Shown: piece after piece, positions 8,587 to 27,634 of the stretch
How the letters are laid out: the number at the start of each line of letters is the position of its first letter
How positions within the stretch are numbered: position 1 is the stretch's first letter
Source: Bacteroidota bacterium
GTDB taxonomy: Bacteria > Bacteroidota > Bacteroidia > Chitinophagales > LD1
Assembly: GCA_025963485.1 (NCBI GenBank)
Contig: JAOQAO010000108.1
Span: forward strand, 1-50,592
Direction of reading: 5' to 3'
DNA: 50,592 bases
The notes under the pieces: model-generated
Told to the model about the DNA's origin: nothing
The model's database searches: none
What the model saw: only the letters and a program-made list of their open reading frames with translations
Translations under genes and position numbers: made by a program

Positions 8587-10383
8587 ATGAAAAAACCACT
8601 TGGAGCAAAATGGCAACTTGATGTCGTTTTAGTAGTTGCAGTAAAGAATGAATTCATTGCATTATTAGACTGGGTGGCCCAGCTAGAAAAAAAACTTCCA
8701 CAAACAATTTATAGATTAGAAAATAATCAACTTGGCGATGCAGAAATAAAATTTGAAATTCTGCAACCGAGTGGAATAGTAATTCGATATCACGTATATA
8801 AATTACCTCATCCATCAATGGGGGGTGATGCAACTACTTTCATCGCGACTAAAGCAATTTATACAATAAAGCCTTTTGTCATTTGTATGATTGGAATATG
8901 CGCAGGGAATCCTTCTGAAACAAAATTAGGAGATGTGATTGTTGCGTCTGCAACAGTAAGGACGGATTTTGGAAAACTTGAAAAGCCTGACGATAAAGCA
9001 CAAAGCGAATTATTACAAGTTTCTACTAATCATTTCAACGGATTGAAATTTTCTCATAGAGTTAACACCAATATTCGCAGAGGGATTGATGGAAGTATAT
9101 TCAGACTTGGCGATTTAATGAGTGCTATCAAGGAATATAACAGCCTTAAATCACAGAGATTAAAAGATATATCAATTAAAGGGCATAAAGTTCTTCTAGG
9201 TATAATTGCATCCGGAAATCAGATTGTTAAAGTTAAAGGAGCCTTTGAGTATTTAAAAAATAAAATAGTGGGCAATGTGGGGGATGAAGACGAACGTATA
9301 TTATTAGGATTAGAAATGGAGGCCCATTCCTTAGCTTATGCAGCTAGTCAAGCTGGTAATGTAGGCTGGTTAATAGTTAAAGGAGTAGCTGATTATGCCG
9401 ACGGCAAAAAGAATGATACTTACCATGGAATTGCACTTTCAAATGCTTTTGATTTTATTAAGTGGATGCTTCCCCAGTCACTCGAACTTGGTTTTGGACG
9501 AGTAGGGCTTGAGAAAAAAGCCTTAGAAAAACTGCTAATTGTCAAAGAAGCTTATGAAAATGGTAAGATAGAAGAAGCTAGTGCGCAAATTAATGCCTTG
9601 TATGTCCAAGGTCTTCGTTCTATTGAAACGCGCAAGCTAATGGTAAAGTGCTTAATGCGGGCGGGTAAATATAGTGAGGCTGAAGATACTTTAAATGAAT
9701 ATAAGAAAAGAAGATGGTTCAATGACGCTCTTACTACAGAATTACTTGCTGAAATAAAATGGAGGGAAGGTGATAATAAATCAATGGAAGAAGTATTAGC
9801 AGAATTCAAGGGACCCGATACGAGTCAACTTCTTTATTTAAAAGCAATGTTACTTGTTTTTAAGGATTCCGCTCCCCAATCTCCTAATGATAAGGTTGAA
9901 AGACTGTTAAAGGCTGAAAAGCTTCTTGCGCAGGCAATTGAGCAATCAAAATCATCACCTCAACCCTTTTATGATGTAAATCATTATTTCGTTTGCAAGT
10001 TATTAGACAAGAGTAAGAGGATTAAAACTAAAGACTTAAATGCTTCTTATAAACGAGCATTATCTACCACTAGCGTTAACCTAAATGCACGAAGACATCG
10101 TGGGTTGATATACATGTATTATCTTCTGCTTTTTGTCATCGCAGATAAGGAAGATGAAGTAATAAAGTTCATTAAAAAGTATAAGGATCAAGATATAGTG
10201 GTGGCCTTAGATAACATTGATATGATTTATAAAAGAATAGAATTGGTCTATGCTGACAATATACCTAATGCCGAAAAGTATTTATTAAGACTATCAAAAT
10301 TTATTTGGAGTAAAAGAACTTACGGTAATGTAATAAGACCAGAAACCAGAGGACGCATGGAAGGACACAAAAAAATACGGTAA
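8587..10383 (+). CDS. Nucleoside phosphorylase-like domain fused to TPR-like repeats
   Basis: Residues 1-295 are a PNP/UDP-phosphorylase/MTA-SAH nucleosidase superfamily domain. They carry the phosphate/ribose-site strand MIGICAGNPSETKLGDVIVA (101-120), the ribose-contact segment GLEMEA (242-247) and VKGVADYAD (264-272), where Asp 269 is the usual base-protonating residue. Residues about 305-580 are helical, TPR-like (AYENGKIEEASAQINALY, MRAGKYSEAEDTLNEY). The family cleaves or phosphorolyses N-glycosidic bonds. Members fused to sensor repeats occur in antiphage systems, where some act as ATP nucleosidases; housekeeping members lack such tails. Here it sits among sugar- and methyl-transfer genes, so either a defence effector or a nucleoside-salvage step is possible. 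Confidence 0.8.
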   Translation: MKKPLGAKWQLDVVLVVAVKNEFIALLDWVAQLEKKLPQTIYRLENNQLGDAEIKFEILQPSGIVIRYHVYKLPHPSMGGDATTFIATKAIYTIKPFVICMIGICAGNPSETKLGDVIVASATVRTDFGKLEKPDDKAQSELLQVSTNHFNGLKFSHRVNTNIRRGIDGSIFRLGDLMSAIKEYNSLKSQRLKDISIKGHKVLLGIIASGNQIVKVKGAFEYLKNKIVGNVGDEDERILLGLEMEAHSLAYAASQAGNVGWLIVKGVADYADGKKNDTYHGIALSNAFDFIKWMLPQSLELGFGRVGLEKKALEKLLIVKEAYENGKIEEASAQINALYVQGLRSIETRKLMVKCLMRAGKYSEAEDTLNEYKKRRWFNDALTTELLAEIKWREGDNKSMEEVLAEFKGPDTSQLLYLKAMLLVFKDSAPQSPNDKVERLLKAEKLLAQAIEQSKSSPQPFYDVNHYFVCKLLDKSKRIKTKDLNASYKRALSTTSVNLNARRHRGLIYMYYLLLFVIADKEDEVIKFIKKYKDQDIVVALDNIDMIYKRIELVYADNIPNAEKYLLRLSKFIWSKRTYGNVIRPETRGRMEGHKKIR

Positions 10384-13734: not shown

Positions 13735-14343
13735 TCATGTTAGATCATTCTCCATGGCATACTTGACCAGGGAAATAAGATTCTTGGCCTCTGTTTTCCG
13801 GTAAATATTTTTCCTGTGAGTTTCTACCGTGAAAGTACTCAGGCATAGTTCCTTTGCGATCTCAGCTGTGGTGTATTCCGAAACGATCAGGCGCAGCACA
13901 TCCATCTCCCGCCGCCCGAGGAGCGATTTTTTCTCATCCCTTTTGGGGGTTTCCAAAAGTGAAAAATATGTTTCTCCGTGTATCACTTTGTTGATACACC
14001 GTAGTAGTTCCTCCTTACCAGTATTCTTGAGTAAATACCCATAGGCGCCGTTAATTTTTGCATCATTTATAAATCTCTTTTCATCGATCATAGACAGGAT
14101 GATAAATTTAGTAGAGACCTGGTGCCTCAAACTAATGATTATCTGAATCCCATTTCTGATGGGCATCCTCATATCTATCAGAGCTATATCCGGTTTGAAA
14201 GCCAGAATATCGCTATAAGCACTTTCTCCGTCATTGGACGACCCCACGATGATGAGGTTAGGTTCGCTTTCGATCAGCAGCTTTAATCCGTCCAATACAA
14301 TTTGATGATCGTCGGCCATATAGATTGATATTGCTTTCTCCAT
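13735..14343 (-). CDS. NarL/LuxR-family response regulator
   Basis: 202-aa two-component response regulator. The receiver domain spans residues 4-120, with the acidic pair DD at 11-12, phospho-acceptor Asp 57 (PDIALIDMRMP) and the conserved Lys in YLLKNTG (about 105). The DNA-binding LuxR/NarL helix-turn-helix is at about 145-200 (LGRREMDVLRLIVSEYTTAE then STFTVETHRKNIYRKT). It starts 4 bp after the sensor-kinase stop, so the two are one transcriptional unit. NarL-type proteins bind 7-2-7 palindromes; two such palindromes occur upstream of this operon, at 16419-16436 and 16479-16496. Confidence 0.95.
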   Translation of the reverse strand: MEKAISIYMADDHQIVLDGLKLLIESEPNLIIVGSSNDGESAYSDILAFKPDIALIDMRMPIRNGIQIIISLRHQVSTKFIILSMIDEKRFINDAKINGAYGYLLKNTGKEELLRCINKVIHGETYFSLLETPKRDEKKSLLGRREMDVLRLIVSEYTTAEIAKELCLSTFTVETHRKNIYRKTEAKNLISLVKYAMENDLT

Positions 14344-14347
14344 TAGG

Positions 14348-15100
14348 TTATTTTGAGGGAAATTCTATAATGATAGTAGTGCCGCCCGGATGCGAATCAA
14401 TATGCAGGAATCCTTTGAAAACCTCAATTCTGCGCCGTACGTTATCCAGCCCGATACCCGTAGAGCTGACGGTGTGCTCGTTAAATCCGATACCATTGTC
14501 CTCAATGATTAGCTGGATCTTGTCATCAAATTTGTCAATTTGAATAGATGCGGCATCGGCCCGCGAATGCTTGTGGATATTATGGACCAGTTCCATTATT
14601 ATTCTATAAACAGGCATTATCAGCATTTCAGGCAGGTCGCCGGATTTGATCTCAAAACTCAGATTATAGACACATTTATTATGCCTGTTCAGTTGGTTGA
14701 GGTATTTTTCCACCGATGACTGCAGGCCTTCTTCATTGGTGATAGACAGTTTGAGGTTTTGTGATATCTCTCTAAGCTCAACAATAGTTTCATCTATACC
14801 CGAAAAGGTTTTCTCGATCAAGGCAGCATGTTCATGGACGCCATCGCTGATCATTATATATTCAAGATTCATTTTCAATCCTGATAATTTGGCTCCGATA
14901 CCATCATGTAGCTCAAGCGCAAGCCGCGTTCTTTCCCTGTCTTCGCTTTCTTTGATCGCATTTGTAATCTGAAGGCGAAAATCAGTCACTCTCTTTTGAT
15001 GGAGAAGGATATAACTGATCATAGCAAATACCAGCATGGCAACAAAAAGAGTCCCTACCAGATAATAAATAACTACTGTATTTGTTGCTTCTGAATACAT
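14348..15100 (-). CDS. Sensor histidine kinase (HisKA_3 / HATPase)
   Basis: 250-aa kinase with one membrane helix (about 10-33) and then a HisKA_3 dimerisation box, ERTRLALELHDGIGAKLSGL, with phospho-acceptor His 65. The C-terminal HATPase domain has the N box ELVHNIHKHS, G1 box DNGIGF and G2 box GIGLDNVRRR. The periplasmic part is only about 10 residues, so it can hardly sense by itself; the multi-pass protein encoded just upstream, whose 3' end overlaps this start by 28 bp, is the likely sensing partner. The kinase should phosphorylate the NarL-type regulator encoded 4 bp downstream. Confidence 0.95.
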   Translation of the reverse strand: MYSEATNTVVIYYLVGTLFVAMLVFAMISYILLHQKRVTDFRLQITNAIKESEDRERTRLALELHDGIGAKLSGLKMNLEYIMISDGVHEHAALIEKTFSGIDETIVELREISQNLKLSITNEEGLQSSVEKYLNQLNRHNKCVYNLSFEIKSGDLPEMLIMPVYRIIMELVHNIHKHSRADAASIQIDKFDDKIQLIIEDNGIGFNEHTVSSTGIGLDNVRRRIEVFKGFLHIDSHPGGTTIIIEFPSK

Positions 15101-15783
15101 CTGTAAGATTGTGCATAAAGAATGTTCGCCACCAAATTAATAAATCCGTGAGTATATAAACCTAACCTGCCGACACTTACCGCATTGGCTGTCAGATAGC
15201 GGATCATCATAAAGTAAAATATATTTACCGAGAAATAGAGCAACACACCAATACTGATCCAGAACATAGGATACTGCCAACTATAGTAGCTCAAATCTTC
15301 CTTTAGCATGTAATAGAAAAAAACAGAGGCGTAAATGACCATCGAAAAGGAAGCATACGTCCTGCTCAATGTATTGGGCTGCCATATCCCGTTTAGGTAA
15401 AAAACATCAAAAAAGGCCAAAGCAATAAAGATCAAAAAGTTAACCGGAATGATCAATTTAAGATTTTTATGCTTTGACAGATAGGCGTAATAAGTAAAGG
15501 AAAAAGCCATAAACTCCACAACTGTGAAAAGATGCAACCCAGGCATATTATTGCTGATGATGGACTTAAAAACACTCGCCTGGATCTCTACAATGCCGCT
15601 GAAGATGAAGAAATACAATAAAAACCGGAATGGTTTGTTTAGTTGTTTAAACCCTATCAGCCCGATCACAATAGGCAGCAAGATGCTGATTTGAGATAGC
15701 TTAATGTAAATAGAGGTAAACGTCATTGGGTCAAATTGTCGCTGGTATTTCCAAGATACATAAAATTCTATCTCTAAAGTCAA
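15073..15783 (-). CDS. Multi-pass membrane protein, probable sensor partner of the kinase
   Basis: 236 aa with about seven hydrophobic segments (ISILLPIVIGLIGF, FLLYFFIFSGIV, VEFMAFSFTYYAY, LIIPVNFLIFIALAFFDV, ASFSMVIYASVFFYYML, PMFWISIGVLLYFSVNIFYF and a last one near the C-terminus). No enzyme motif is visible. Such proteins encoded next to small HisKA_3 kinases are common in Bacteroidota, but their signal is not known. The annotated start lies 3 bp after the preceding gene; an internal ATG (MTFTSIYIKL, residue 20) is also possible. The 28-bp overlap with the kinase gene implies translational coupling. Confidence 0.75.
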   Translation of the reverse strand: MTLEIEFYVSWKYQRQFDPMTFTSIYIKLSQISILLPIVIGLIGFKQLNKPFRFLLYFFIFSGIVEIQASVFKSIISNNMPGLHLFTVVEFMAFSFTYYAYLSKHKNLKLIIPVNFLIFIALAFFDVFYLNGIWQPNTLSRTYASFSMVIYASVFFYYMLKEDLSYYSWQYPMFWISIGVLLYFSVNIFYFMMIRYLTANAVSVGRLGLYTHGFINLVANILYAQSYRCIQKQQIQ

Positions 15784-15786
15784 CCC

Positions 15787-16356
15787 TTATTTGGGTGGGG
15801 CAATCTGCAGTGTAACAAATGCACTGCTCGTCGATTTCAGGTTTCCGGTATTACTACAATTGTTGGGACATGGATCAGCATAGTCGTAATATGGATACTC
15901 ATCGTCGACAGTCAGGTCATCACTGCAATCCTCACATTCGGGATCGCTTCCCGCTGTGGTGCTCACTGCTATTATTGTCAGTTGGCCATCTTCATTTATC
16001 CCCGTATAAAAACGCACTCCATTTACCTCTGAGTAGTCTTCATACGAAGTGATCCCAAGCAAATTCAACAATGCGGCTTTATCAAAGCTCCATGAAATGG
16101 GAACCGTAACTTCATTATCCCCCATAGATCTAAACCTTGTAGTATATTCTATAGCCAGGGCCGGAGTTATCACTTCCGACGGCTTTTTCTCAGTATACCC
16201 TTCTTTACAAAATCGATGCTGATACGGCGGCAAAGATTTTAAGTATTCAAAAGCGCTATCATAAGCCCGCGATTGCATTTCGCCTCCGGGCTCAGAGGTT
16301 GAAGATGCTTGGGTGTTTTCATAACCTCTTTTTGCTTGTGATTCTTGTTGCTTCAT
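15787..16356 (-). CDS. Conserved Bacteroidota protein with Cys-Pro-rich tail, 189 aa
   Basis: First gene of the leftward regulatory operon. There is no signal peptide. The N-terminal 80 residues are polar. The middle reads GVRFYTGINEDGQLTIIAV, and the C-terminal part is acidic and Cys-rich (DPECEDCSDDL, then YDYADPCPNNCSNTG). Proteins with an 'RxYxGxxxxGxxTL' strand followed by a PCPxxC tail are frequent and uncharacterised in Bacteroidota; I recognise the type but know no function. The four or five Cys could bind a metal or act as a redox switch. Its promoter carries one of the two palindromic boxes. Confidence 0.65.
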   Translation of the reverse strand: MKQQESQAKRGYENTQASSTSEPGGEMQSRAYDSAFEYLKSLPPYQHRFCKEGYTEKKPSEVITPALAIEYTTRFRSMGDNEVTVPISWSFDKAALLNLLGITSYEDYSEVNGVRFYTGINEDGQLTIIAVSTTAGSDPECEDCSDDLTVDDEYPYYDYADPCPNNCSNTGNLKSTSSAFVTLQIAPPK

Positions 16357-16388
16357 TGCTATTATTTTTTTGGTTGTTTATAATGATG

Positions 16389-16419
16389 CAAATCTAGCCT
16401 TGGGGATACCCTCAGGCAA
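16389..16419 (-). promoter_or_regulatory. Promoter of the leftward two-component operon
   Basis: On the minus strand: TTG (16419-16417), 20 bp, TAGATTTG (16396-16389), a perfect TAnnTTTG box. The start would be near 16382, about 25 nt before the ATG at 16356. Confidence 0.75.
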
Positions 16420-16436
16420 TACCTACTCAAGGGTAT
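16419..16436. promoter_or_regulatory. Palindromic operator box 1 (NarL-type 7-2-7)
   Basis: ATACCTACTCAAGGGTAT. Its core TACCTAC-TC-AAGGGTA has the 7-2-7 inverted-heptamer layout used by NarL-family regulators. It directly abuts and slightly overlaps the -33 TTG of the leftward promoter, centred about 45 bp before the predicted start. Confidence 0.65.
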
Positions 16437-16478
16437 ATTCCGATCTGTCTTTATGCTCTGATACTTCATATATGGAAT

Positions 16479-16496
16479 ATACCTACCATAGGGTAT
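16479..16496. promoter_or_regulatory. Palindromic operator box 2 (NarL-type 7-2-7)
   Basis: ATACCTACCATAGGGTAT, matching box 1 at 15 of 18 positions and placed 60 bp from it. It abuts the -33 TTG of the rightward promoter exactly as box 1 abuts the leftward one. Confidence 0.65.
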
Positions 16497-16526
16497 TGAT
16501 GGAACTTATACAGATGTGGACATTTG
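16496..16526 (+). promoter_or_regulatory. Promoter of the TIR/caspase operon
   Basis: TTG (16496-16498), 20 bp, GACATTTG (16519-16526), one mismatch from TAnnTTTG. The weaker -7 box suits an activator-dependent promoter. The start would be near 16533, about 23 nt before the ATG at 16556. Confidence 0.6.
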
Positions 16527-16555: not shown

Positions 16556-17140
16556 ATGGCACTGTACGATAGTCAGTATTTGAAGCAGCTCGTGAGAGAG
16601 AAGGGGCAATCAAGGAGGATAAAATTGCTCAGCGAAAGTACAACGATAAATTCAACCTTCGATATTTTCATTGCCCATAGTTTCCTCGACAAAGAAGAAG
16701 TAGAAGGACTCTATATCGAGCTGACCGACCAGGGCTATTCGGTCTATGTAGACTGGATCATAGACCCGCACCTGGACAGGCACAATGTGACAAAGGAGAC
16801 TGCCGCCTGGATCAGGGCGCGCCTCAGGGCATCAAGGTCTTTGATACTCGCTATCTCAGAAAATGAACAAATGTCAAAATGGACGCCATGGGAGCTGGGC
16901 TATGTGGACGGCCATACCACGAAGTGCTCTATACTGCCTGTCTCCGCACAGGCGCATGGCCACCGGTCGTTCAAAGGCAAGGAATACCTGTCACTCTATC
17001 CATATATCAAAAAGGCACGCATAGACTTGAGAGAGGACCTCTATCTGGTGGATTCACCCAACCGGTTTGTGCTGTTGGATGAATGGGTAAAGAAGAACGC
17101 AGGACCCAGATTAAGTAGCGTAAATATTGATTCACTATGA
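16556..17140 (+). CDS. TIR-domain protein 1
   Basis: 194 aa from MALYDSQYLKQL; this start fits the promoter at 16496-16526. Residues 34-125 form a TIR domain: strand A FDIFIAHSFLDKE, the BB-loop region YSVYVDWIIDP, then SRSLILAISEN and KWTPWELGYVDG. In TIR NADases the catalytic Glu sits in a W-x3-E motif, here Trp 109/Glu 113, so NAD+ hydrolysis or conversion is plausible. The first 33 and last 60 residues match no domain I know. Its TGA stop overlaps the caspase start (ATGA), so both proteins are made together. Confidence 0.85.
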   Translation: MALYDSQYLKQLVREKGQSRRIKLLSESTTINSTFDIFIAHSFLDKEEVEGLYIELTDQGYSVYVDWIIDPHLDRHNVTKETAAWIRARLRASRSLILAISENEQMSKWTPWELGYVDGHTTKCSILPVSAQAHGHRSFKGKEYLSLYPYIKKARIDLREDLYLVDSPNRFVLLDEWVKKNAGPRLSSVNIDSL

Positions 17141-18078
17141 GACGAGCACTGGTCGTAGGAATAAACAAGTATCCAGGATCACCCCTTTTTGGCTGTGTGA
17201 ACGATGCGAATGATTTTAAGAAGATCATCGAGACTAATGAGGATGGTTCGCCGAATTTCGATGTGCGGGTAGAGGAAAATATCGGCACAAAGGCAGAACT
17301 CAAAGCGAAGATCGCAAAACTATTTGCTGCTGAATCAGACATGTCTCTGCTATACTTTTCCGGGCATGGCATAATCACTGAACTTGGTGGCTACATCATG
17401 ACGCCGGATTATAAAAGTTATGATGAAGGCGTCTCTATGGATGAGATACTGAACCTCGCCAATGAATCCAGGGCCAAAGACAGGATCATCTTTCTCGACT
17501 GCTGTCATGCAGGAGCTATGGGTAGCCCTGCCGTGATGGGTGGCAGCTCCTCTATGATCAAGTCAGGTGTATCCATACTATCGGCCAGCAGGAGTGATGA
17601 AACATCGATGGAGTTCAATGGTCATGGAGTCTTTACCAGCCTATTGCTGGATGGGCTAAGCGGTGGTGCAGCTGACCTCTGCGGCAACATAACTGCCGCC
17701 AATATTTATACCTATATAGATCAAGCTCTGGGTGCCTGGCACCAGAGGCCGGTGTTTAAAACCAATATCACCCGCTTCACTTCGCTGAGGAATGTAAAAC
17801 CTCAGGTACCGAAAGAAATATTACGGTTGCTGGTTAGTTATTTCCCTGTGCCTGAGGCAGAGTATAAGCTGGATCGCACTTATGAATACACCAACAAGAA
17901 GGTCGCCATAGAGGAAAAGGTCGTCATATTCAAAAATTTGCAAAGACTCACAAGCGTAGGCCTCATAGTTCCCGTGGGCGAGGAACATATGTACTGGGCC
18001 GCACAAAACGGCAAGTCATGCAGGCTTACAGCCCTGGGTTATCACTACTGGAGATTGGTAAAGGAAGGAAGGTTATAA
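17137..18078 (+). CDS. Caspase-like (peptidase C14) protease with C-terminal helical/winged-helix tail
   Basis: 313 aa. Residues 1-220 are a metacaspase-type p20 domain: start RRALVVGINKYPG, catalytic His 77 in YFSGHG, and catalytic Cys 123 in IIFLDCCHAGAMG. The active dyad is intact. Residues about 228-313 look like a small winged-helix domain (LRLLVSYFPV..., VGLIVPVGEEHMYWAA, LTALGYHYWRLV), the kind of appendage that couples bacterial caspases to partners. Metacaspases prefer Arg/Lys at P1, though specificity here is unknown. It overlaps the TIR 1 gene by 4 bp and precedes TIR 2 by 10 bp. Substrate candidates are operon products, including the 261-aa protein at its end. Confidence 0.9.
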   Translation: MRRALVVGINKYPGSPLFGCVNDANDFKKIIETNEDGSPNFDVRVEENIGTKAELKAKIAKLFAAESDMSLLYFSGHGIITELGGYIMTPDYKSYDEGVSMDEILNLANESRAKDRIIFLDCCHAGAMGSPAVMGGSSSMIKSGVSILSASRSDETSMEFNGHGVFTSLLLDGLSGGAADLCGNITAANIYTYIDQALGAWHQRPVFKTNITRFTSLRNVKPQVPKEILRLLVSYFPVPEAEYKLDRTYEYTNKKVAIEEKVVIFKNLQRLTSVGLIVPVGEEHMYWAAQNGKSCRLTALGYHYWRLVKEGRL

Positions 18079-18088
18079 ATAAAAAACA

Positions 18089-18754
18089 ATGACTGAGACA
18101 CAAGAAAAATATGATGTAGTAATCTCTTTTGCTGAAGAAGATAGGGCCTATGCAGATGCATTCGACGCACGGCTCACTGCGGGGGGGCTGAAAGTTTATA
18201 CGTACTTCAATAAATTTTTTGAGACAGCAGGTGAGCCGCTGGATCAGAAGCTGGTGGATATATATACCAGGTATTCCCGGTTTGCTATTGTTCTCATTAG
18301 TTCACACTACCTGAATGATACAAAAAAATTTGTGCCCATTGAAATAGATGCAATTAATAAGCGAAGGAATGAGCAAGGAAATTATGTGTTCCCGATTTTT
18401 TTGGAAGATGGCCTTGTCGAGCAGGCGAACCAGAAACTCCATGGCATCGGACAAGTTGGTTACTTGGAGTTTTTTCGGGCTATGAATACGGAGGAGATCG
18501 TAAAGGAGATCATAAAGAAACTGAAGAAGAAGAATGGAGCAGAGGTAAACGATTTAAAAGTCGCAATCAACTACGAGGTGGTAACACTAAGAACTGTCAA
18601 TAGCTCAAATAGTAATTCGAACAATAATTCAAATATCCACTCAAACAACAATTCAAATAATAAAACAACAAATTTCAATATAGCTGGTGGGGTTGGGCAA
18701 ATTCACAAAAATGACAAGGCCATTTACAATAAAAACAATAGGGATGGAAAATAA
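18089..18754 (+). CDS. TIR-domain protein 2 with Asn-rich linker and C-terminal RHIM/amyloid-like motif
   Basis: 221 aa. Residues 8-145 are a TIR domain: YDVVISFAEEDRAYADAF, LKVYTYFNK, FAIVLISSHYL, and FVPIEIDAI with Glu 85 in the F-x3-E position of the catalytic Glu. A Ser/Asn-only linker follows (about 171-195). The last 25 residues contain GGVGQIHKNDKAIYNKNN (200-217). This motif matches, without gaps, the N-terminal part of the next gene's product (8 of 19 identical: G-x-V-x-x-[IL]-H-x-N-D-x-A-x-Y-x-x-N). Effector-domain, linker, short C-terminal motif is the layout of bacterial amyloid-signalling effectors. Its 3' end overlaps the next gene by 11 bp. Confidence 0.85.
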   Translation: MTETQEKYDVVISFAEEDRAYADAFDARLTAGGLKVYTYFNKFFETAGEPLDQKLVDIYTRYSRFAIVLISSHYLNDTKKFVPIEIDAINKRRNEQGNYVFPIFLEDGLVEQANQKLHGIGQVGYLEFFRAMNTEEIVKEIIKKLKKKNGAEVNDLKVAINYEVVTLRTVNSSNSNSNNNSNIHSNNNSNNKTTNFNIAGGVGQIHKNDKAIYNKNNRDGK

Positions 18755-21173
18755 TGAAACAACACCCACCGAAACATCCTCACCCTCCTCTGGCATTGAA
18801 TCGACGCAACCTGCCGTGGAATCTATTAATGATAGTACACAGCCTGGCACAACTGAGGGTAGTGAAGGAGATTCGAAAAATACTACTATAAATGGAGAAG
18901 TTAAGGAACTCCACAACAATGACAACGCTACTTATTATAATAATAAGTATGAGATACTAAAGAATGTCCGTGAAATTCAATTTGATCCGACTACTATTTC
19001 GGAAAATGATATAAAAAATACCGCCAAACTGCTCTCAAGTGAAGAAAGGAGTAAAAACTGTGAACTACTCATATCCAAGCGTGTTTTATTATTGGATTTT
19101 CCTGATGAAGAGCTTGCCTTATACATGTCTATAAATATTGCTGAATTCGCTCAAAAAAACGGTTATAAACTATGGAAAACGCTTCTTACCCCGGGTATGA
19201 TGAATCTGGAGGGGGTATATTTTGATAATTTTTTTTCAAGTATACACAGATCAGATAATCCCGAACACCACAAATCCCTTTTTATCATTGATTGCAACAA
19301 TGCAAATTTTACGAGCTCATTACATACTACAAAGAATAAAAGAGATGAGTATATCAGTCTCCTTTCAGAATCTAAGTACGACCAACTCGTAATTCTCATA
19401 ATTTACAAGCATCTCTATTCAATTCCCCAGCAAGTATACACTCTTTTTGCGCCTGCAGATCTGCCACATGATCCTTTGTCCTTTTTGGCTTATATGGGAA
19501 TGAGGTTTACTGATGATGAGGTAAGCAGCCTCCGTAGCCTTATCAACTCTATCATCGCAAAAGGCATTTGGGGTGAGTCTCCCGATGGGCATTATACTCT
19601 CATAAAAGAAAAGTTTGATAAATACAAAAACTTCATCAGGATAGATCAGCATTTACGCGAAGTGTTGGGGAAAGAGCAAAATGAATACCAGGAAAAGTAC
19701 AAAAGCCAGCATAAACTGGAACAAAGCCTGTTGTTTTCGGCCTTGCACTTCGGCGAAGTCTCCTACAGCAGTTTTTACTTTATAGTCGAGGTTTTGCTGG
19801 AAGGTGAAAAACAGCCATCAGTGCGAAAGAAGCAAATAATATCTGAGGAGACCATGCAGCATACCATCATAGATGAACTCATTGAGGTAGATGCCAAAGC
19901 CGAATGGCTAAAAATGGGCGATGACTACCTGGCCAAGCTTAATATTGTTCCATCAATAAATGCAAACGGGCTTCGTATTATCCGGTTTAGCGATGCGGAA
20001 TTTGAGGTCCAGTCAAGGGCCTATTTTAACAGGATGTTCGCCGCTTCCACCAGCTTTTTTAAAAAGTTGGAAGACCGGGGGATACTTTTTAGCGATGAGC
20101 TTACCATTGAAGAAATAGAAAAGTACATTGATTTATGCTTTTCCTGGTTTACGCGGGAGACACCGGCATTTCGTATCAATTTCCTTAAAAACCTGCTGAC
20201 TGGTTCAATGGCCATCGTGGAAGATTGGTTTACAGTCGATGATATCAGGCTCAACAGGATTTCAGTATTCCTGAAGCGATGGTATAAGACAGAGGGCTAT
20301 GGGAATGGCGCTCATACTGTACTTGCTTCCTTTATCAAAGATGGACATTACCGCGCGATCACAAACCTGATCTTTAAGATTAAAAAGATCATGATCGAAG
20401 ACGAAGTATTCAATCTGGCTGATCGGGTTGCGTTTCTACTGGACTATCACTTTGGAGCAGAAGAAGATTTAACTGCATTATTGAAAAATGCCGGCAGTCT
20501 CTATTGGGGCTTGTTATCCTTTTGTAATTATTATCCCTTATTAATACTTCCTACTCTTATAGAACTTGGGGCATGGAGAGATGAAGAAAAGCACTCAGAC
20601 ATAGTCCAATTATATGCATCTACATTAATTCATAGCCTAACTGTTATATGCAGAAATAAGCCTGATATGATAAGTAAGACCAAACAGGCTGCTATCCCAT
20701 CATTTTTTCATGAACTAAACAACAAGGTAAACGAACAAGAATATGCCGCCCTCTTGGTTGATAATCTCCTGACCTGTACCGGACATGTAGAAAAAATACC
20801 CAAAACCCTAATGGAAGTATACTTAATACTGATAAGTATGACCCTAAAGGAATTCGAATTTAAAGCCGGAAAAGCAACAGTAGAAGATATGACTTTTGCC
20901 CTGGTAGCAGCCACCCTTGGCGAATGGTATTGCCAACTAAAGGAAGCGGATAATAAATCTGCCCGCTCCTTCGCTGATTTGTTGGTCCGTACCTTTGTCC
21001 GAACAGCCGAAAAGAAGACCGTAGCTGCTGTCCGGCGCCTGCTGAGCGAACAGAAAATGTATCTCACCACACTTATTGGAAAGATCGGAGATCCGAAAGC
21101 AAAAGAAAAGAAAAGGCTAAGAGAAAAAATTACGGCGCTTTACGACCTGATAAACAATCTAAATAAAATATAG
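18744..21173 (+). CDS. STAND-like sensor candidate with N-terminal RHIM/amyloid-like motif, 809 aa
   Basis: Start chosen at MENNETTPTETSS (18744); an upstream ATG at 18687 would overlap TIR 2 by 68 bp and add unrelated residues. Residues 1-48 are a Ser/Thr/Glu/Pro-rich disordered segment. Residues 50-68 carry NGEVKELHNNDNATYYNNK, the partner motif of TIR 2. Residues 110-225 look like a degenerate P-loop NTPase core: RVLLLDFPDEELALYM in Walker A position but lacking GK[ST], SLFIIDCNN in Walker B position and QLVILIIY as the next strand. The remaining 550 residues are helical, ARM/HEAT-like. I infer a STAND-type sensor or scaffold that has lost ATP binding; no known family is recognised with certainty. 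Confidence 0.75.
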   Translation: MENNETTPTETSSPSSGIESTQPAVESINDSTQPGTTEGSEGDSKNTTINGEVKELHNNDNATYYNNKYEILKNVREIQFDPTTISENDIKNTAKLLSSEERSKNCELLISKRVLLLDFPDEELALYMSINIAEFAQKNGYKLWKTLLTPGMMNLEGVYFDNFFSSIHRSDNPEHHKSLFIIDCNNANFTSSLHTTKNKRDEYISLLSESKYDQLVILIIYKHLYSIPQQVYTLFAPADLPHDPLSFLAYMGMRFTDDEVSSLRSLINSIIAKGIWGESPDGHYTLIKEKFDKYKNFIRIDQHLREVLGKEQNEYQEKYKSQHKLEQSLLFSALHFGEVSYSSFYFIVEVLLEGEKQPSVRKKQIISEETMQHTIIDELIEVDAKAEWLKMGDDYLAKLNIVPSINANGLRIIRFSDAEFEVQSRAYFNRMFAASTSFFKKLEDRGILFSDELTIEEIEKYIDLCFSWFTRETPAFRINFLKNLLTGSMAIVEDWFTVDDIRLNRISVFLKRWYKTEGYGNGAHTVLASFIKDGHYRAITNLIFKIKKIMIEDEVFNLADRVAFLLDYHFGAEEDLTALLKNAGSLYWGLLSFCNYYPLLILPTLIELGAWRDEEKHSDIVQLYASTLIHSLTVICRNKPDMISKTKQAAIPSFFHELNNKVNEQEYAALLVDNLLTCTGHVEKIPKTLMEVYLILISMTLKEFEFKAGKATVEDMTFALVAATLGEWYCQLKEADNKSARSFADLLVRTFVRTAEKKTVAAVRRLLSEQKMYLTTLIGKIGDPKAKEKKRLREKITALYDLINNLNKI

Positions 21174-21176
21174 CAT

Positions 21177-23555
21177 ATGATATTCGACAATCTGATCAAA
21201 TCAATTAAGGACAACACGGTCAAAGTTGGGGCGAATGATATAGCCCTCTATGCAAAAAAGGAGAATAATACTTTTAAAATACTCGACAAGAAACCTTTTC
21301 TCGGGGGCAATTCATTCAGTACGTATGTTGTAAACACCGACCATTGGGTAAGGCATGACCTGAAATGCAATATAAGCTCAATGGAAAACTCTATGCATAG
21401 TTTTGACCTCCATATCAACTATGAGATCAGGATCGCAGCCGGCGATGAAAAAAGGGCCCTCAACTTTTTTCTGGAGCAAGATACACAAGTATTTAGCTCT
21501 GCCTTTAATGCCGCTCTTGAAAACTGGATACTGGAATATGTAAGAACCTACCCACACGGTTTTGATGGCTTTATGGAGCGTTTTTTCGAAGATACCAAAC
21601 CATTGCGCGAGTTCCTGCAGTCGAAGGTAAAGATTCATGGCATCACCATGAATTTGAGTATAGCCACGGTAGCCGATGAGCCCGAGTCGACTGTAAAAGG
21701 GACCCTGCATGTTAAGCCAAATGATCAAACCGAGTATGTCGACATCAGGTATGTGGCCAATATCAATGTTTTCAAGCCCAATAAGCTGAAATCATGGAAA
21801 TCTACAAGCAGGCGCTCAGAGACAGAGAAAGAGCAGATACTCAAATCCCTGATGACCGGCCAGTCTATAAAGAAGCTATTTGAATCACAGATCTATTATA
21901 AAAGTATAGTAGATGACCTTAATGGTTCTGTGAAGAGTAAAGTTATTGATTCACTTAACGATCTTTTGAATCAGGAAGGCTGGGCCATCAATGAGCTCAC
22001 TTTATTTTACGATAGACCGAGACACGAGATACAGAATGAGATCCAGCACAAAACTGAATGCGCTATACTTAACTATACAAAAGGCCTGTCTATCAATCAT
22101 ACAATACTCGTTTCGCTGGATGATGTGGGTAAGTTCAACAAGGCTAATTTATCCGGGCCTGAAGCCGTAAAATGGCTCAAAGCGGAACTGGACAAAGAGG
22201 TGAGAAGCTCTTTGCTCAGGAAAACGTTTTCAGAAGTAGTATTATCTTTTAGCACCTATGCAGATCAGATAGAGTGTGTATTCCAGGAAAAAGCGCAGAG
22301 TATAGGCCTCACTGTCAAACAAATAATATCGCGCCCCGAACTGCCCGATTGGGATATTGTGTTCAATAGTTTTACGATTGACCTGCCGTTTCAAAAATAC
22401 AATACCAGAGACACCTCGGTATATGCATACATTGAGATAAAGTGCAAACTTCATTTGAATCTTGAATCCAGGAAATTGAAAAGTTTAATTATCCCGGGAG
22501 TCAATATCAGGGAAGTCATAGAATCAACTATCCGGGAAACTGCACAGAGAGTGTTGCTAAAAATATCCCCGGAAGATTATTACCTGAATTTTATGACATC
22601 TATTGGGGACCTGCCCTCGGTGGAAGACAGGCTAAAACAACAGATATCCGATGCGATCATTGAACAGCTGGGGCTGCGGGACGGCAGCAGAGAACAAGAT
22701 AACCTGCCTGAAATCGTGATCAGGCTCGATACAAATGCAGATGCCCTGTCAAGGCGTGCACGAAAGCTGATCGCCGAAGGAGATATGGGTTTTATCCTGA
22801 ACCTGTCGAGCAATGCAGAAAGGGGAAGGACTGACAGCGTCCAGTATAAGATCACCTATTATATCACTCAGGTAGACCCCGAAAAATGGCACACATTCGC
22901 AGGCTTTTCATACCCTTACCTGGAAGACACCAAAGAAGCTACGGTCTTGCGCGACCCGGAATTCATTGCTAAAATATTTCCTCTCATAGAAGATACTCTC
23001 AGGGATAACATGACAGCCCTTTTGGAAAATAAATCAAATGAGGTGCTAAGGTATACTGATGACAATACGAAAGCAGGCCTTGAAATGGCAGAGGCCCTTA
23101 ATATATGTGAAGGCATGATCAGGAATAAATATGGCCTGGTGATCCGCTTCAATCTTCCGCACAGGCTTGCTACGCAAAGTGAACGTTTTGAGCAAAAAGC
23201 CACCAACATCAAACTCGAAATGCAGGCCAACTATACGGTAGCCGATTTCAAGGATAAGCTCGAAGAAAAAAGAGAGCTGGAAAAAGAAGTTAGAAGTCTC
23301 CAGATAAAAAACCCCGGCGCACCGGAAATAAAGATTTACAAAAAGAGAATCCAGGAACTGGAAGAGAAGTATAACCTGATCAACGCATCTGCTGACAGGA
23401 TGCTGGCAGATTCAAAAGAAAAAGGGGCCAGGCCCATAGACAAAGGTAGCAGCAGTTTGAAGAATAACCCTTCACTGAGCCTGCTTGATCAGGACAATCC
23501 TCAGATAAAAAAGCTGACCGAAGGCGGGGATACTGAAAACGAAAATAAGGACTAA
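21177..23555 (+). CDS. Tandem SPFH/Band-7-like protein candidate, 792 aa
   Basis: Starts 3 bp after the previous gene. Several segments repeat the same order: a beta pair of the form x-Y-x-I-x-[IV], a long amphipathic helix, then a strand introduced by a [GW]-[LWI]-x-[IV] turn. Examples are LHINYEIRIAAGDEKRALNF; LFESQIYYKSIVDDLNGSVK followed by GWAINELTLFYD; LDKEVRSSLLRKTFSEVVLS followed by IGLTVKQIISRPEL; and YKITYYITQVDPEKWHTF followed by GLVIRFNLPHRLA. This is how SPFH/Band-7 and vault repeats read. I count about five modules. Residues about 700-750 are coiled coil. No membrane segment is seen. A ring- or cage-forming scaffold is possible; the assignment is inference from pattern only. Confidence 0.7.
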   Translation: MIFDNLIKSIKDNTVKVGANDIALYAKKENNTFKILDKKPFLGGNSFSTYVVNTDHWVRHDLKCNISSMENSMHSFDLHINYEIRIAAGDEKRALNFFLEQDTQVFSSAFNAALENWILEYVRTYPHGFDGFMERFFEDTKPLREFLQSKVKIHGITMNLSIATVADEPESTVKGTLHVKPNDQTEYVDIRYVANINVFKPNKLKSWKSTSRRSETEKEQILKSLMTGQSIKKLFESQIYYKSIVDDLNGSVKSKVIDSLNDLLNQEGWAINELTLFYDRPRHEIQNEIQHKTECAILNYTKGLSINHTILVSLDDVGKFNKANLSGPEAVKWLKAELDKEVRSSLLRKTFSEVVLSFSTYADQIECVFQEKAQSIGLTVKQIISRPELPDWDIVFNSFTIDLPFQKYNTRDTSVYAYIEIKCKLHLNLESRKLKSLIIPGVNIREVIESTIRETAQRVLLKISPEDYYLNFMTSIGDLPSVEDRLKQQISDAIIEQLGLRDGSREQDNLPEIVIRLDTNADALSRRARKLIAEGDMGFILNLSSNAERGRTDSVQYKITYYITQVDPEKWHTFAGFSYPYLEDTKEATVLRDPEFIAKIFPLIEDTLRDNMTALLENKSNEVLRYTDDNTKAGLEMAEALNICEGMIRNKYGLVIRFNLPHRLATQSERFEQKATNIKLEMQANYTVADFKDKLEEKRELEKEVRSLQIKNPGAPEIKIYKKRIQELEEKYNLINASADRMLADSKEKGARPIDKGSSSLKNNPSLSLLDQDNPQIKKLTEGGDTENENKD

Positions 23556-23557
23556 TC

Positions 23558-24235
23558 ATGAGAAAATACATATGCTCAAACAGGCTCGTAACTCAACCAT
23601 GCAGCTTGCGTCTTGCCGGTACAATAACGATGGGAAGCGATGATGCACAATTAAAATGCAAAGAATGCAATTCCGAATTGGAGCCGCTTGAGGAGAACAC
23701 GTCACCACAACCGCCATCGCGCGTCTGGAAATATGCAGGGATATCACTGGCAGTACTAGTAATAATGGTCGTGGCAGTATTATTTATCGAGCACAACAAA
23801 AACAGCACCGTAGATACACTTACTGCAAAACCGGAAGAGAAGATACAAGACCAAACTGTTACTTCTAAAGCCACTGATACATCAGGTAAGCATGCCGATC
23901 AAAAGCAATATTATATTCCTTCACCTTCTAAGCCAGATCCAGCCCATAGCCGTGATAAAATGACACTGACTACCATCCAACATTTTTTTGATGATCTGTC
24001 AGGTGGACCAGCGCCATACAGTGCAAAGAGCGATCTTTTAAAATCCGGGGTCGAGCGATTTTTCACAAGCCCCGAAGCGAGAATCGCTACACTGGGCAAG
24101 AACCATACCCAAACGGACGAGATGTCAGCTTCAGATTTCGGTGAGCTGCTCTGCACTTCTGGTCAGCGGTATTTCTTTGTAGGCGGCGAACTGGAAGGGA
24201 CGAGATATTCCAAAGTATATGTCACCGCACAATAA
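23558..24235 (+). CDS. Zinc-ribbon protein with one transmembrane helix
   Basis: 225 aa. The N-terminus has C6-x8-C15 and C34-x2-C37, a plausible zinc ribbon on the cytoplasmic side. One membrane helix follows at 58-77 (YAGISLAVLVIMVVAVLFIE). After a polar linker, the C-terminal domain (about 135-225; TTIQHFFDDLSGG, GELLCTSGQRYFFVGGELEG) would be periplasmic. It starts 2 bp after the SPFH-like gene. The topology makes it the bridge between the cytoplasmic TIR/caspase proteins and the secreted products of the next three genes. Family not recognised. Confidence 0.75.
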   Translation: MRKYICSNRLVTQPCSLRLAGTITMGSDDAQLKCKECNSELEPLEENTSPQPPSRVWKYAGISLAVLVIMVVAVLFIEHNKNSTVDTLTAKPEEKIQDQTVTSKATDTSGKHADQKQYYIPSPSKPDPAHSRDKMTLTTIQHFFDDLSGGPAPYSAKSDLLKSGVERFFTSPEARIATLGKNHTQTDEMSASDFGELLCTSGQRYFFVGGELEGTRYSKVYVTAQ

Positions 24236-24244
24236 AAGAAAAAC

Positions 24245-24847
24245 ATGAAAAAACTAATACCATTTATTGGCTTTATATGTATATCAGCAAGTATTTGCCT
24301 GGCACAATCCAATACAACCGATAAGGAGGCGAAGCTCACTAAAGCCGAAATAGAGGATTTCACGGATCAGGCAAGCAGGGTTGTCTGGAACCTGGGAAGG
24401 GATATCACTATAATAGCAGATAAATCTCAGGACTCACTGAAAAGGAGAGCAGCCATAAAACTGGCCTGCAAATTATTTATCAATGCAGATAGCAATATAG
24501 TCCAGGTAAGCTCAGTACTCCCTGGCATCCCTATCAAATTCGTACCCGTAAGGGTCTATTTGAATTCGCTTTTCGACCTCCCGTATAGCAAGGTCAATAT
24601 CGTATGGTATCACGTTTACTTCTCTAAGCTATTTGAACCCGGCGAGGGTGGCCTTTATTACGGTATAGCAAACATATCTCAGACTTTCACGGGATATGCA
24701 AGCAAAGATATTGGAACCTATCATGATGTGACTGAAAAAAAAATAAAGATAGTAATAGAAAAGATAGGTGAAATGGATGGAGACAAAGAAAAGCAATACT
24801 GGCGCCTTTTTCTGGGAGATATACAAGTAACCGAAACAAAGCAATAA
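24245..24847 (+). CDS. Secreted protein, 200 aa, NTF2-like candidate
   Basis: Signal peptide MKKLIPFIGFICISASICLA with cleavage before QSN. The mature part runs from a helical first half (LKRRAAIKLACKLFI) into PVRVYLNSLFDLPYSKVNIV, then YYGIANISQTFTGYASKDIG and LFLGDIQVTETK. The R-V-x-x-Y-L-N-x-L element followed by strands resembles a common Bacteroidota periplasmic module, and the gene at 25658 has a similar RVQEYLNNL. An NTF2/SnoaL-like fold is my guess. No Cys in the mature part, so no lipid anchor. It lies 9 bp after the zinc-ribbon gene, and its stop overlaps the next start. Confidence 0.75.
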   Translation: MKKLIPFIGFICISASICLAQSNTTDKEAKLTKAEIEDFTDQASRVVWNLGRDITIIADKSQDSLKRRAAIKLACKLFINADSNIVQVSSVLPGIPIKFVPVRVYLNSLFDLPYSKVNIVWYHVYFSKLFEPGEGGLYYGIANISQTFTGYASKDIGTYHDVTEKKIKIVIEKIGEMDGDKEKQYWRLFLGDIQVTETKQ

Positions 24848-25647
24848 TGAGATCAACTACTTTAATACTTCTGCTAAGCACATTAGCTTATGGCGCGCAT
24901 AGTCAGTCTTTCAGTTTCATGGATGATTTCCTGAATAAAAGAGCTGTGCAGGAGGTGAAATTGCTGAGTGAATTTGCTGATAGGTTTAATATGACGGACA
25001 CGGTCTTCCTCATTGACACAACGATTAAGCCATCCCGATATCTCAATATCCTTAGTCTTTTCAATAGGGCGAACAAAAAATTTCACAATGATTCATCTGT
25101 CATCAGTTTTACAAACGACATCCTGAGAGACTCCTTCCTGATCGATTTTACCGATTCGAATTGGTATGCAGTAGCGCATGCCGTATTTGTATACCGGGGT
25201 GTCAAACGGAATATCCCATTGACACTAAAACACGTCAAAAACCAGGGCCGCGGATACTCCTGGGTGATAGTAGGAGCAAACATAGACGCTTTAAATGTAA
25301 AGCTGGATAGGATAGAATCCCAAAAAATCGATCCGGTAGATAATGAATTGTCCTTCCTCAGCCTGTCGAAGGGCTTTAATTCAAAAAATGGATTGTTGTC
25401 TTATACAAGTGCGGACTTTGATATTGATTATCTCAGCGTTTTCCTGTTTCTGGCAGAATCCGGCACCATTAATTTTACCCAGATCGATAGTGTATCATAT
25501 CATTTTCTGAACACGCCAAACTGGATCTTTAAGGTCGAATATTTCAATAGGATGGATTTGAACTGTGGCTGGCTCATTTCGGAAATATCGCCATCGACCG
25601 ATACGCAAAAAGCAGGCTATAAAAATCTAATTCTTCACCTTCAATAA
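24847..25647 (+). CDS. Secreted hypothetical protein, 266 aa
   Basis: Signal peptide MRSTTLILLLSTLAYGAHSQ. Just after cleavage comes AVQEVKLLSEFADRFNMTDT, an N-terminal helix type frequent in Bacteroidota periplasmic proteins. The rest is mixed alpha/beta (YAVAHAVFVYRGVKRNIPLTL, YSWVIVGANIDALNV), with no catalytic motif. The start codon overlaps the previous stop (TAATG), so it is coupled. Probably periplasmic. No known family recognised. Confidence 0.75.
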   Translation: MRSTTLILLLSTLAYGAHSQSFSFMDDFLNKRAVQEVKLLSEFADRFNMTDTVFLIDTTIKPSRYLNILSLFNRANKKFHNDSSVISFTNDILRDSFLIDFTDSNWYAVAHAVFVYRGVKRNIPLTLKHVKNQGRGYSWVIVGANIDALNVKLDRIESQKIDPVDNELSFLSLSKGFNSKNGLLSYTSADFDIDYLSVFLFLAESGTINFTQIDSVSYHFLNTPNWIFKVEYFNRMDLNCGWLISEISPSTDTQKAGYKNLILHLQ

Positions 25648-25657
25648 AACCCTATTT

Positions 25658-26785
25658 ATGAGACCACTATTTTGTTTAAATATTATTTTGACGATGGCTT
25701 TCCACAACACATTTGCGTCCGCACCTATTTTGGCACCGGAGGAGGTGCTGGATGCGCACCTGAACATTGAACAAAAATTTAAAAGTTATTACAGGGAACT
25801 GAACTACCTGACCAATGGCCAGATGTCATTCCCCGAAAGGGACAATAACATAAAATCTATAATCAGCGAATACTATGCAGGAGATACAGTAGCTGTATAT
25901 AATGATTATGAAAGCAAAGGCATCCAGCATTTGCGGGTGCAAGAATACTTGAACAACCTTGCTGTCGGTTATAGTGAGGATAAAAAAGGATTTGGATTTT
26001 CCGATCCGCAGGTTAACGTTTCGGAAATATTTCTTAAGGATAATGGAGAAAATTTCTTCGTTAAAGTGGAGATCACCCGGACATTCTATTGCAGCGCGGA
26101 TCACTCGAATGACGACGTTCAAACCATTGATTATTATGTAAAGTTTTACCCTAACAGTAAAAATTATAAAATATATACAATGGCAAAGCATGAAAACAAT
26201 ACAATGGAATTCAAGAGAGCAATCGTTCAAAGCAAAATGGTCCTGAGTTCCGATAACATCAATGTACCAATACCCAATCCATCATATTTCGTATTTAATG
26301 TAGTGCCGGGTGATGCAGAGGTGAAGATCGACGGAAAGTCTGTTTATGTCGTCAACAACATGAATATACCCGTCCAGGCCGGCAAGCATAAAATCGAAAT
26401 CTCCGCTCCTGGCTATGAATCCTATACAAGCGAGGAGTCTTATGCCAAAGAAGGTCAGAACAATTTTGCCGCTAATCTCAGAGCAAAGATGGGATCACTC
26501 AGCATTTTAAATAAAACACGGAAAGAGATAGGAGCTTCAGTTTATGTAGATGGGAAATTAGCGGGAACAATTCCTGCAGAGAGGATTCCATTGTCCGAAG
26601 GGAAGCATGCCGTGAGAATAATCAAAAATGGGTACTTCATTAGTTCGAGGAAAGTAAATATCGAAGACCAGAGCGATGAATCCGTTAAAGTATTCCTGGT
26701 AAATGTAGAAAACACCAAAAGAGGTGTGGCCATTGGGATTAGTATATTCAACCAAATCTTAAACAGTGCTCCACCCAAAAAATAA
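25658..26785 (+). CDS. Secreted protein with two PEGA domains
   Basis: 375 aa with signal peptide MRPLFCLNIILTMAFHNTFA. Residues about 30-200 contain an NTF2-like region (SIISEYYAGDTVAVYNDY, LRVQEYLNNLA, VKVEITRTFYC), related in layout to the 200-aa secreted protein upstream. Two PEGA domains follow: about 215-280 (VVPGDAEVKIDGKSVYVV... HKIEISAPGYESYTS) and about 285-350 (GASVYVDGKLAGTIPAERIP... HAVRIIKNGY). PEGA domains are surface or peptidoglycan-facing beta modules, so this product likely sits in the periplasm, perhaps at the cell wall. It lies 10 bp after the previous gene and is the last of the tightly packed genes. Confidence 0.85.
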   Translation: MRPLFCLNIILTMAFHNTFASAPILAPEEVLDAHLNIEQKFKSYYRELNYLTNGQMSFPERDNNIKSIISEYYAGDTVAVYNDYESKGIQHLRVQEYLNNLAVGYSEDKKGFGFSDPQVNVSEIFLKDNGENFFVKVEITRTFYCSADHSNDDVQTIDYYVKFYPNSKNYKIYTMAKHENNTMEFKRAIVQSKMVLSSDNINVPIPNPSYFVFNVVPGDAEVKIDGKSVYVVNNMNIPVQAGKHKIEISAPGYESYTSEESYAKEGQNNFAANLRAKMGSLSILNKTRKEIGASVYVDGKLAGTIPAERIPLSEGKHAVRIIKNGYFISSRKVNIEDQSDESVKVFLVNVENTKRGVAIGISIFNQILNSAPPKK

Positions 26786-26848
26786 CAATGGACATCTGAC
26801 CTTTATAATTCATAAATATAAAATTCACAACAACTAAATCAAAGCCAA

Positions 26849-27634
26849 ATGAAAGGACCGCAAACACAATATACAGATGAAATGAAAAAGCATTTCGGGT
26901 ACTATGCCGCCTGGGAACCAGGTATACCTATTGAAATAGGAGACGTGGGCACATTGTCCGGAAATGTTTTTACAAGGCATGCTAATCTGAGGGATCTTGA
27001 AGTAGATATTGAAACTGCGCCTAACCGCGGCCAATCTACGGATCTCCAATATACATCCAATGGCAGCGTTAATATTTCCACAAAATTGTCCGGGGCCGTC
27101 CCCGCTACGGGAAGTTCGCTTTCCAGTCTTGATCTAGGCATATCAATAGAATTCGGAAAAGAGTTTGCTACTTTATTCAAAGCCGATAAAACCACGAGTC
27201 CATCCATTCGGAATACTATTAAACTTGGCGAGGACATATTGAAGCTTTTCAAGGACGGCAAATGGGATAAAAACTGGAGGATCGTGACAGAAGTGATCGT
27301 AGCAGAAAGTGCATCTGTTATTATCAGCAACAGTACTAATAGTAAAGTAGAGCTTAAAGCTAATGGTAATATTAACGCGGTAAAGATCGATATCGCAGAT
27401 GCAGCTTTCAATTTTTCAGCCGTTAATACCCGGGGGATAAACACTATGATACTAGCTCAAAAGGGAATGACACCACTATTTAAACTGATGGGGATCAAAA
27501 CCAGGATACTCCAGGAGCCAGTATTTGCAACCAGAGGTATTAAAGCGATAGATCTTATTACCCCTGATAGCATTCAAACAATCCATAAAGACTTAGTCTA
27601 CTTTGGTCACATTACTGAAGAAATCACGGAATAG
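26849..27634 (+). CDS. Hypothetical 261-aa protein, possible gasdermin-like pore-former
   Basis: No signal peptide. It starts MKGPQTQYTDEMKKHFGYYA, followed by IEIGDVGTLSGNVFTRHANL, alternating Ser/Thr-rich strands (NGSVNISTKLSG, LDLGISIEFGKEFATLF), a helix IKLGEDILKLFK, and the long hairpin-like strands NWRIVTEVIVAESASVIISN. Length and strand order recall bacterial gasdermins, which lie next to caspase-like proteases that cleave them. Against this: there is no Cys near the N-terminus for palmitoylation, and I cannot align it residue by residue. It lies 63 bp after the PEGA gene, so it is in the operon or on its own promoter. Function otherwise unknown. Confidence 0.65.
   Translation: MKGPQTQYTDEMKKHFGYYAAWEPGIPIEIGDVGTLSGNVFTRHANLRDLEVDIETAPNRGQSTDLQYTSNGSVNISTKLSGAVPATGSSLSSLDLGISIEFGKEFATLFKADKTTSPSIRNTIKLGEDILKLFKDGKWDKNWRIVTEVIVAESASVIISNSTNSKVELKANGNINAVKIDIADAAFNFSAVNTRGINTMILAQKGMTPLFKLMGIKTRILQEPVFATRGIKAIDLITPDSIQTIHKDLVYFGHITEEITE

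Follow-up and report, generated by a model that had tools for sequence, protein, structure and literature searches.

In this study we analysed a 50,592-nt stretch of DNA from a Bacteroidota bacterium of the order Chitinophagales (contig JAOQAO010000108.1 of assembly GCA_025963485.1; the whole stretch is referred to as the window), in which an operon for a membrane-linked two-component system and an operon with TIR and caspase-like genes diverge from a common intergenic region. This region carries two 18-bp palindromes, each fused to a promoter, and we consider it quite probable that both are dimer sites of the NarL-type response regulator encoded in the leftward operon (13735-14343, minus strand), which would activate its own sensor operon as well as the TIR-caspase operon. 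The adjacent cognate regulator is the likely binder, and likely controls both operons. This control had already been proposed in a first-pass annotation of the window, and the proposal gains support from the adjacency of the genes, from covariation between recognition helix and half-site and from the conserved palindrome. The sites, their conservation, the order-wide class of promoters to which they belong and the link of this class to NarL-type regulators are established at the level of sequence; what points to activation upon phosphorylation is the position of the sites.

The start codons at 16356 (minus strand) and 16556 (plus strand) are separated by 199 bp. Palindrome 1, ATACCTACTCAAGGGTAT, lies at 16419-16436 and is the putative site for the leftward sensor-operon promoter; on the minus strand it reads ATACCCTTGAGTAGGTAT and runs into TTG-N20-TAGATTTG via one common T. 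Palindrome 2, ATACCTACCATAGGGTAT, at 16479-16496, the putative site for the rightward TIR-caspase promoter, runs in the same way into TTG-N20-GACATTTG on the plus strand. The TTG elements at -33 occupy 16417-16419 (minus) and 16496-16498 (plus), both matching the promoter pattern and the leftward one also in wider scans, and the -7 elements occupy 16389-16396 (minus) and 16519-16526 (plus), with exactly 20 bp between TTG and -7 element in both promoters. The primary-sigma elements of Bacteroidota are TAnnTTTG at -7 and TTTG near -33 (PMC7366714); the leftward promoter agrees with them in full, and in the rightward one GACATTTG differs from TAnnTTTG at the first base. A sigma-70 scan gave no excess of matches, its model not representing Bacteroidota promoters. 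The two palindromes with their abutting TTG and the 20 bp to the -7 element were thus found at the coordinates first given for them, with some changes in the description. Neither palindrome is perfect: of the 7 arm pairs 5 match (arms ATACC...GGTAT). The distance of 60 bp holds from start to start, the gap itself being 42 bp, and the mirror-image layout applies to the promoters, whereas the 18-mers are direct repeats of one another. Reckoned from the promoter elements, transcription would start near 16385 (minus) and 16530 (plus), which leaves some 25-30 nt of leader and puts the centre of each palindrome about 43 bp before its start. An extra half-site, ATACCC, was noted on the plus strand at 16406-16411, inside the leftward -33/-7 spacer; it forms a direct repeat 13 bp from palindrome 1 and might be a feedback element.

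Chance does not explain this combination of palindromes and promoters. Dinucleotide shuffling of the 200-bp intergenic stretch, repeated 20,000 times, never gave even a single palindrome abutting such a promoter, and a pattern scan of the 4.5-Mb genome found ATACCTACNNNAGGGTAT without mismatch at these two sites only. Relaxed palindrome scans of the same genome stayed little above the reversed control (24 versus 18 and 95 versus 73), and its 18 GGTATTG-promoter matches revealed no further good palindrome, a weak one on contig C237 being discarded as it falls inside coding sequence. The genome also holds a separate group of palindromes with an A/T core, ATACCYNTTTTNGGGTAT (L003-L017), which are often intergenic; they occur without the -33/-7 context and were rejected as members of the regulon.

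Conservation upstream of related sensor operons was a test set beforehand. For neither the membrane protein nor the regulator did searches of the genus (six other genomes) and of the rest of the family return a close relative. Two more distant genomes, G070 (a metagenome-assembled genome of the Chitinophagales) and G058, keep the same order of four genes, with regulators 50% and 49% identical, and a third, G102, has the first two genes of the sensor operon up to the end of its contig. All three of these readable relatives carry an 18-bp ATAC-N10-GTAT palindrome upstream of the first gene; the contig of G070 begins 356 bp upstream of that gene. These palindromes, ATACCCAGTAATGGGTAT, ATACTCATTAGTGAGTAT and ATACAAAGAAGTTTGTAT, each end exactly 23 nt before TATCTTTG, compared with 22 nt from palindrome to -7 element in the window. 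Their half-sites are TACCCA, TACTCA and TACAAA, the inner bases changing on both arms together, as would be expected of a dimer site. The palindrome is thus kept, with compensatory changes, upstream of all three sensor operons of relatives that could be read. For membrane-protein homologues at greater distance (E 1e-29 to 1e-4), the stretches read showed no such palindrome. G058 has two copies of the palindrome upstream of its sensor operon, the second 52 bp further up (L060:4784-4853).

The same arrangement recurs throughout the order. We searched 398 Chitinophagales genomes for ATAC-N10-GTATTG-N19..21-TAnnTTTG, a pattern in which four arm pairs are fixed and the three inner ones are free, and obtained about 108 matches, compared with 5 for the pattern read backwards. 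When 0-25 nt were allowed between GTAT and TTG, about 82 matches were spread over the 26 spacings, or about 3 per spacing (control about 40), so that the abutting phase is strongly preferred. In 86 non-redundant sites the free inner pairs match 141 times, a value reached by none of 10,000 re-pairings (mean 91, maximum 119), and at many sites an ATG follows 20-50 nt after the -7 element. Downstream of the other sites lies a mixture of genes (for envelope proteins, regulators and imelysin-like proteins), and those listed include no TIR or caspase family; hence the promoter class, taken as a whole, is not an immune regulon. In one genome, G230 (L250-L254), four of five sites have similar flanks and a contig end no more than about 200 bp away, suggesting a repeated element that carries the promoter.

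With profiles built from the window operon we looked for regulators and kinases near these sites. A NarL-type regulator or HisKA_3 kinase lies within 300 nt, divergent, just downstream or just upstream, at 20 of the 86 non-redundant sites. Regulators and half-sites appear to be matched: the five RKHIE regulators, two of which lie 4 kb from their site, all pair with TACG; TACCA goes with RKHVY regulators, and TACC with most of the THRKN types. A Mantel test of helix against half-site gave r = 0.32 (p <= 1e-4) after removal of regulators more than 75% identical and r = 0.24 (p = 0.015) at 60% thinning; with directly adjacent regulators only, p was 0.009 and 0.036. With ETHRKN the regulator of the window falls among the THRKN types, and the TACC of its sites is what this class predicts. 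The type of binding site is already known. The heptamer consensus of Escherichia coli NarL is TACYYMT (PMC4886647), and the heptamers of palindrome 1, TACCTAC and TACCCTT in inverted 7-2-7 arrangement, each agree with it at 6 of 7 positions. As in E. coli NarL/NarP sites, the half-sites start with TAC and are inverted with the same geometry, the linked receiver-GerE regulator belongs to the same family, and the site is conserved upstream of orthologous operons. In contrast to the E. coli sites, the inner bases in Chitinophagales vary by regulator, the position at the Bacteroidota -33/-7 promoter is fixed, and no nitrate sensor genes occur at this locus.

Leftward from the intergenic region the sensor operon encodes, all on the minus strand, a small 189-aa protein (15787-16356) related to a 131-aa protein at the same place in the relatives, an integral membrane protein without Pfam match (15073-15783) that is the candidate sensor part, a histidine kinase identified by its HisKA_3 and HATPase_c domains (14348-15100) and the regulator, in which the receiver domain and the GerE helix-turn-helix (HTH) both score above cut-off and the recognition helix is TFTVETHRKN. 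The regulator matches the structures of DesR, NarL and VraR (NarL structure 1a04 at 8e-22); orthologues share its acidic pocket, the phospho-acceptor D57, S84 and K106, and phospho-acceptor and kinase domains are intact. In its membrane-linked HisKA_3 kinase, its DesR/VraR-like regulator and a site in its own promoter the operon resembles the autoregulated DesKR and VraSR systems, from which it differs in having two genes ahead of the kinase, for the small extra protein and a separate membrane protein, and in that its presumed second, divergent target is an immune cassette.

Taken together, a signal sensed at the membrane would lead the kinase to phosphorylate the NarL-type regulator, which might then bind both palindromes next to the -33 elements, contact RNA polymerase and recruit it to both divergent promoters. 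The operon of small protein, membrane protein, kinase and regulator would thereby activate itself in a positive feedback, and expression of the TIR-caspase operon would rise upon the signal. The nature of the signal, the binding, the activation and the dependence on phosphorylation are what we infer. Several points weigh against this interpretation. Both palindromes of the window have two mismatched arm pairs, and the rightward -7 element is weak. The sensor operons of G058 and G102 have other neighbours, with no TIR-caspase operon adjoining, and the link between TIR-caspase and sensor operon is a single instance, seen in one genome. An orphan LuxR-type HTH with the related helix RTHRKR exists in the genome (contig C48), and part of the covariation between helix and half-site may reflect shared ancestry and not a code.

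The alternative that survives best, unlikely as we hold it to be, is that the regulator represses rather than activates. Controllers known to adjoin immune operons act as repressors (PMC13373217), and the extra ATACCC inside the leftward spacer would fit repression as well. However, the palindromes lie upstream of -33 with one base in common and hold a fixed phase in about 108 promoters, as would be expected of an activator that touches the polymerase, and a weak rightward -7 element suits activation. It is rather improbable that only palindrome 1 works, palindrome 2 being a leftover duplicate and the TIR-caspase operon being expressed independently. Duplication would give direct repeats such as the two 18-mers, and the rightward -7 element is off consensus, but palindrome 2 keeps precisely in phase with a -33/-7 pair whose spacing is likewise 20 bp, which is unexpected for a decaying copy. 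Slightly less probable still is that another LuxR-type protein, and not the adjacent regulator, reads the sites. The stand-alone orphan HTH (L267:3133-3330, helix ETVRTHRKR) is 48% identical to the DNA-binding domain of the window regulator and a possible competitor; the palindrome, however, is conserved with the sensor operon in three other genomes, and the helices of the two remaining close response regulators (C56) read INTINTYRARI and are quite different. Chance similarity without function is very improbable: short degenerate elements are common and single promoter-like matches frequent, but the shuffle, genome-wide and comparative tests and the compensatory changes in the relatives speak against it.

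The presumed second target, about ten genes read rightward from 16556 to 27634 with short gaps or overlaps, is probably a type IV Thoeris-like, anti-phage operon. Its first gene (16556-17140) encodes a ThsB-like TIR protein (3e-48 to the ThsB model; PDB 8btn, 1.9e-38), and the start at 16556 fits the family, positions 7-182 of 183 of the PADLOC ThsB model aligning with residues 6-179. The overlapping second gene (17137-18078) encodes a caspase-like protease, recognised by domain search and plasmid homologues, with an intact His-Cys pair (SGHG, DCCHAG). It is homologous over its full length, at 45-57% identity, to plasmid caspases that come after a small gene, annotated as TIR in 4 of 6 records and giving a TIR-like alignment in the others; caspase H77 and C123 and TIR E113 are invariant in alignments with these plasmid pairs. 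A second TIR-domain protein, found by domain searches (18089-18754), and two large proteins of no recognised family and without Pfam match follow, of 809 aa (18744-21173) and 792 aa (21177-23555), all on the plus strand. According to PMC12847820, citing Rousset et al. 2025, type IV Thoeris, a phage defence, consists of a TIR protein and a caspase-like protease that is activated by N7-cyclic ADP-ribose (N7-cADPR), which the TIR protein makes and the protease binds. Here, too, a TIR gene is followed in one operon by a full-length caspase homologue, with catalytic His, Cys and TIR Glu kept; the differences are the longer, ThsB-like TIR, the second TIR and the two large proteins in the same gene run, and the adjoining two-component system. 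No orthologue of the whole operon was found: searches returned no relative of the 792-aa protein from 299 genomes of the order and none of the 809-aa protein from plasmids. G+C content is 34-46% between 6 and 28 kb, compared with about 48-52% in the first 6 kb of the window, which is consistent with an acquired island. Near the TIR-caspase operon, a second candidate conflict gene at 8587-10383 combines PNP_UDP_1 (phosphorylase superfamily) with TPR and matches PADLOC PDC-M60C, and at 27900-36338 the minus strand encodes a 2812-aa protein with long collagen-like GxT repeats.

The adjacent controllers of immune operons described so far are DNA-damage-responsive repressors, and CapK/CapS also occurs beside type IV Thoeris (PMC13373217). 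Cap-type controllers (CapW, CapH/P, CapK/S) share with our locus that regulator genes adjoin an immune operon, whose transcription they control and which the regulator would control here. However, they sense DNA damage or single-stranded DNA and repress, whereas here we find a membrane-linked two-component system, probably an activator, whose regulator is a receiver-GerE protein with a HisKA_3 kinase and as such not of the Cap type. Control of a TIR-caspase operon by a membrane-linked two-component system appears to be new: literature searches, which covered few subscription papers, returned no description of it, nor of the promoter class. As to the wider idea that a membrane-linked, positive-feedback two-component on-switch primes TIR-caspase immunity by an envelope signal rather than DNA damage, via an order-wide Chitinophagales promoter class whose half-site code co-evolves with the recognition helix, we regard the chances as even.

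Little is known about how bacteria time the expression of TIR-caspase immunity, which is costly. The pairing of kinase and regulator with a membrane partner suggests that such immunity might be primed before DNA is injected or damaged, and the locus gives two reporter-ready promoters. Beyond this locus, the order-wide class offers dozens of regulator-site pairs with which the DNA-recognition code of Bacteroidota NarL-type regulators could be tested.
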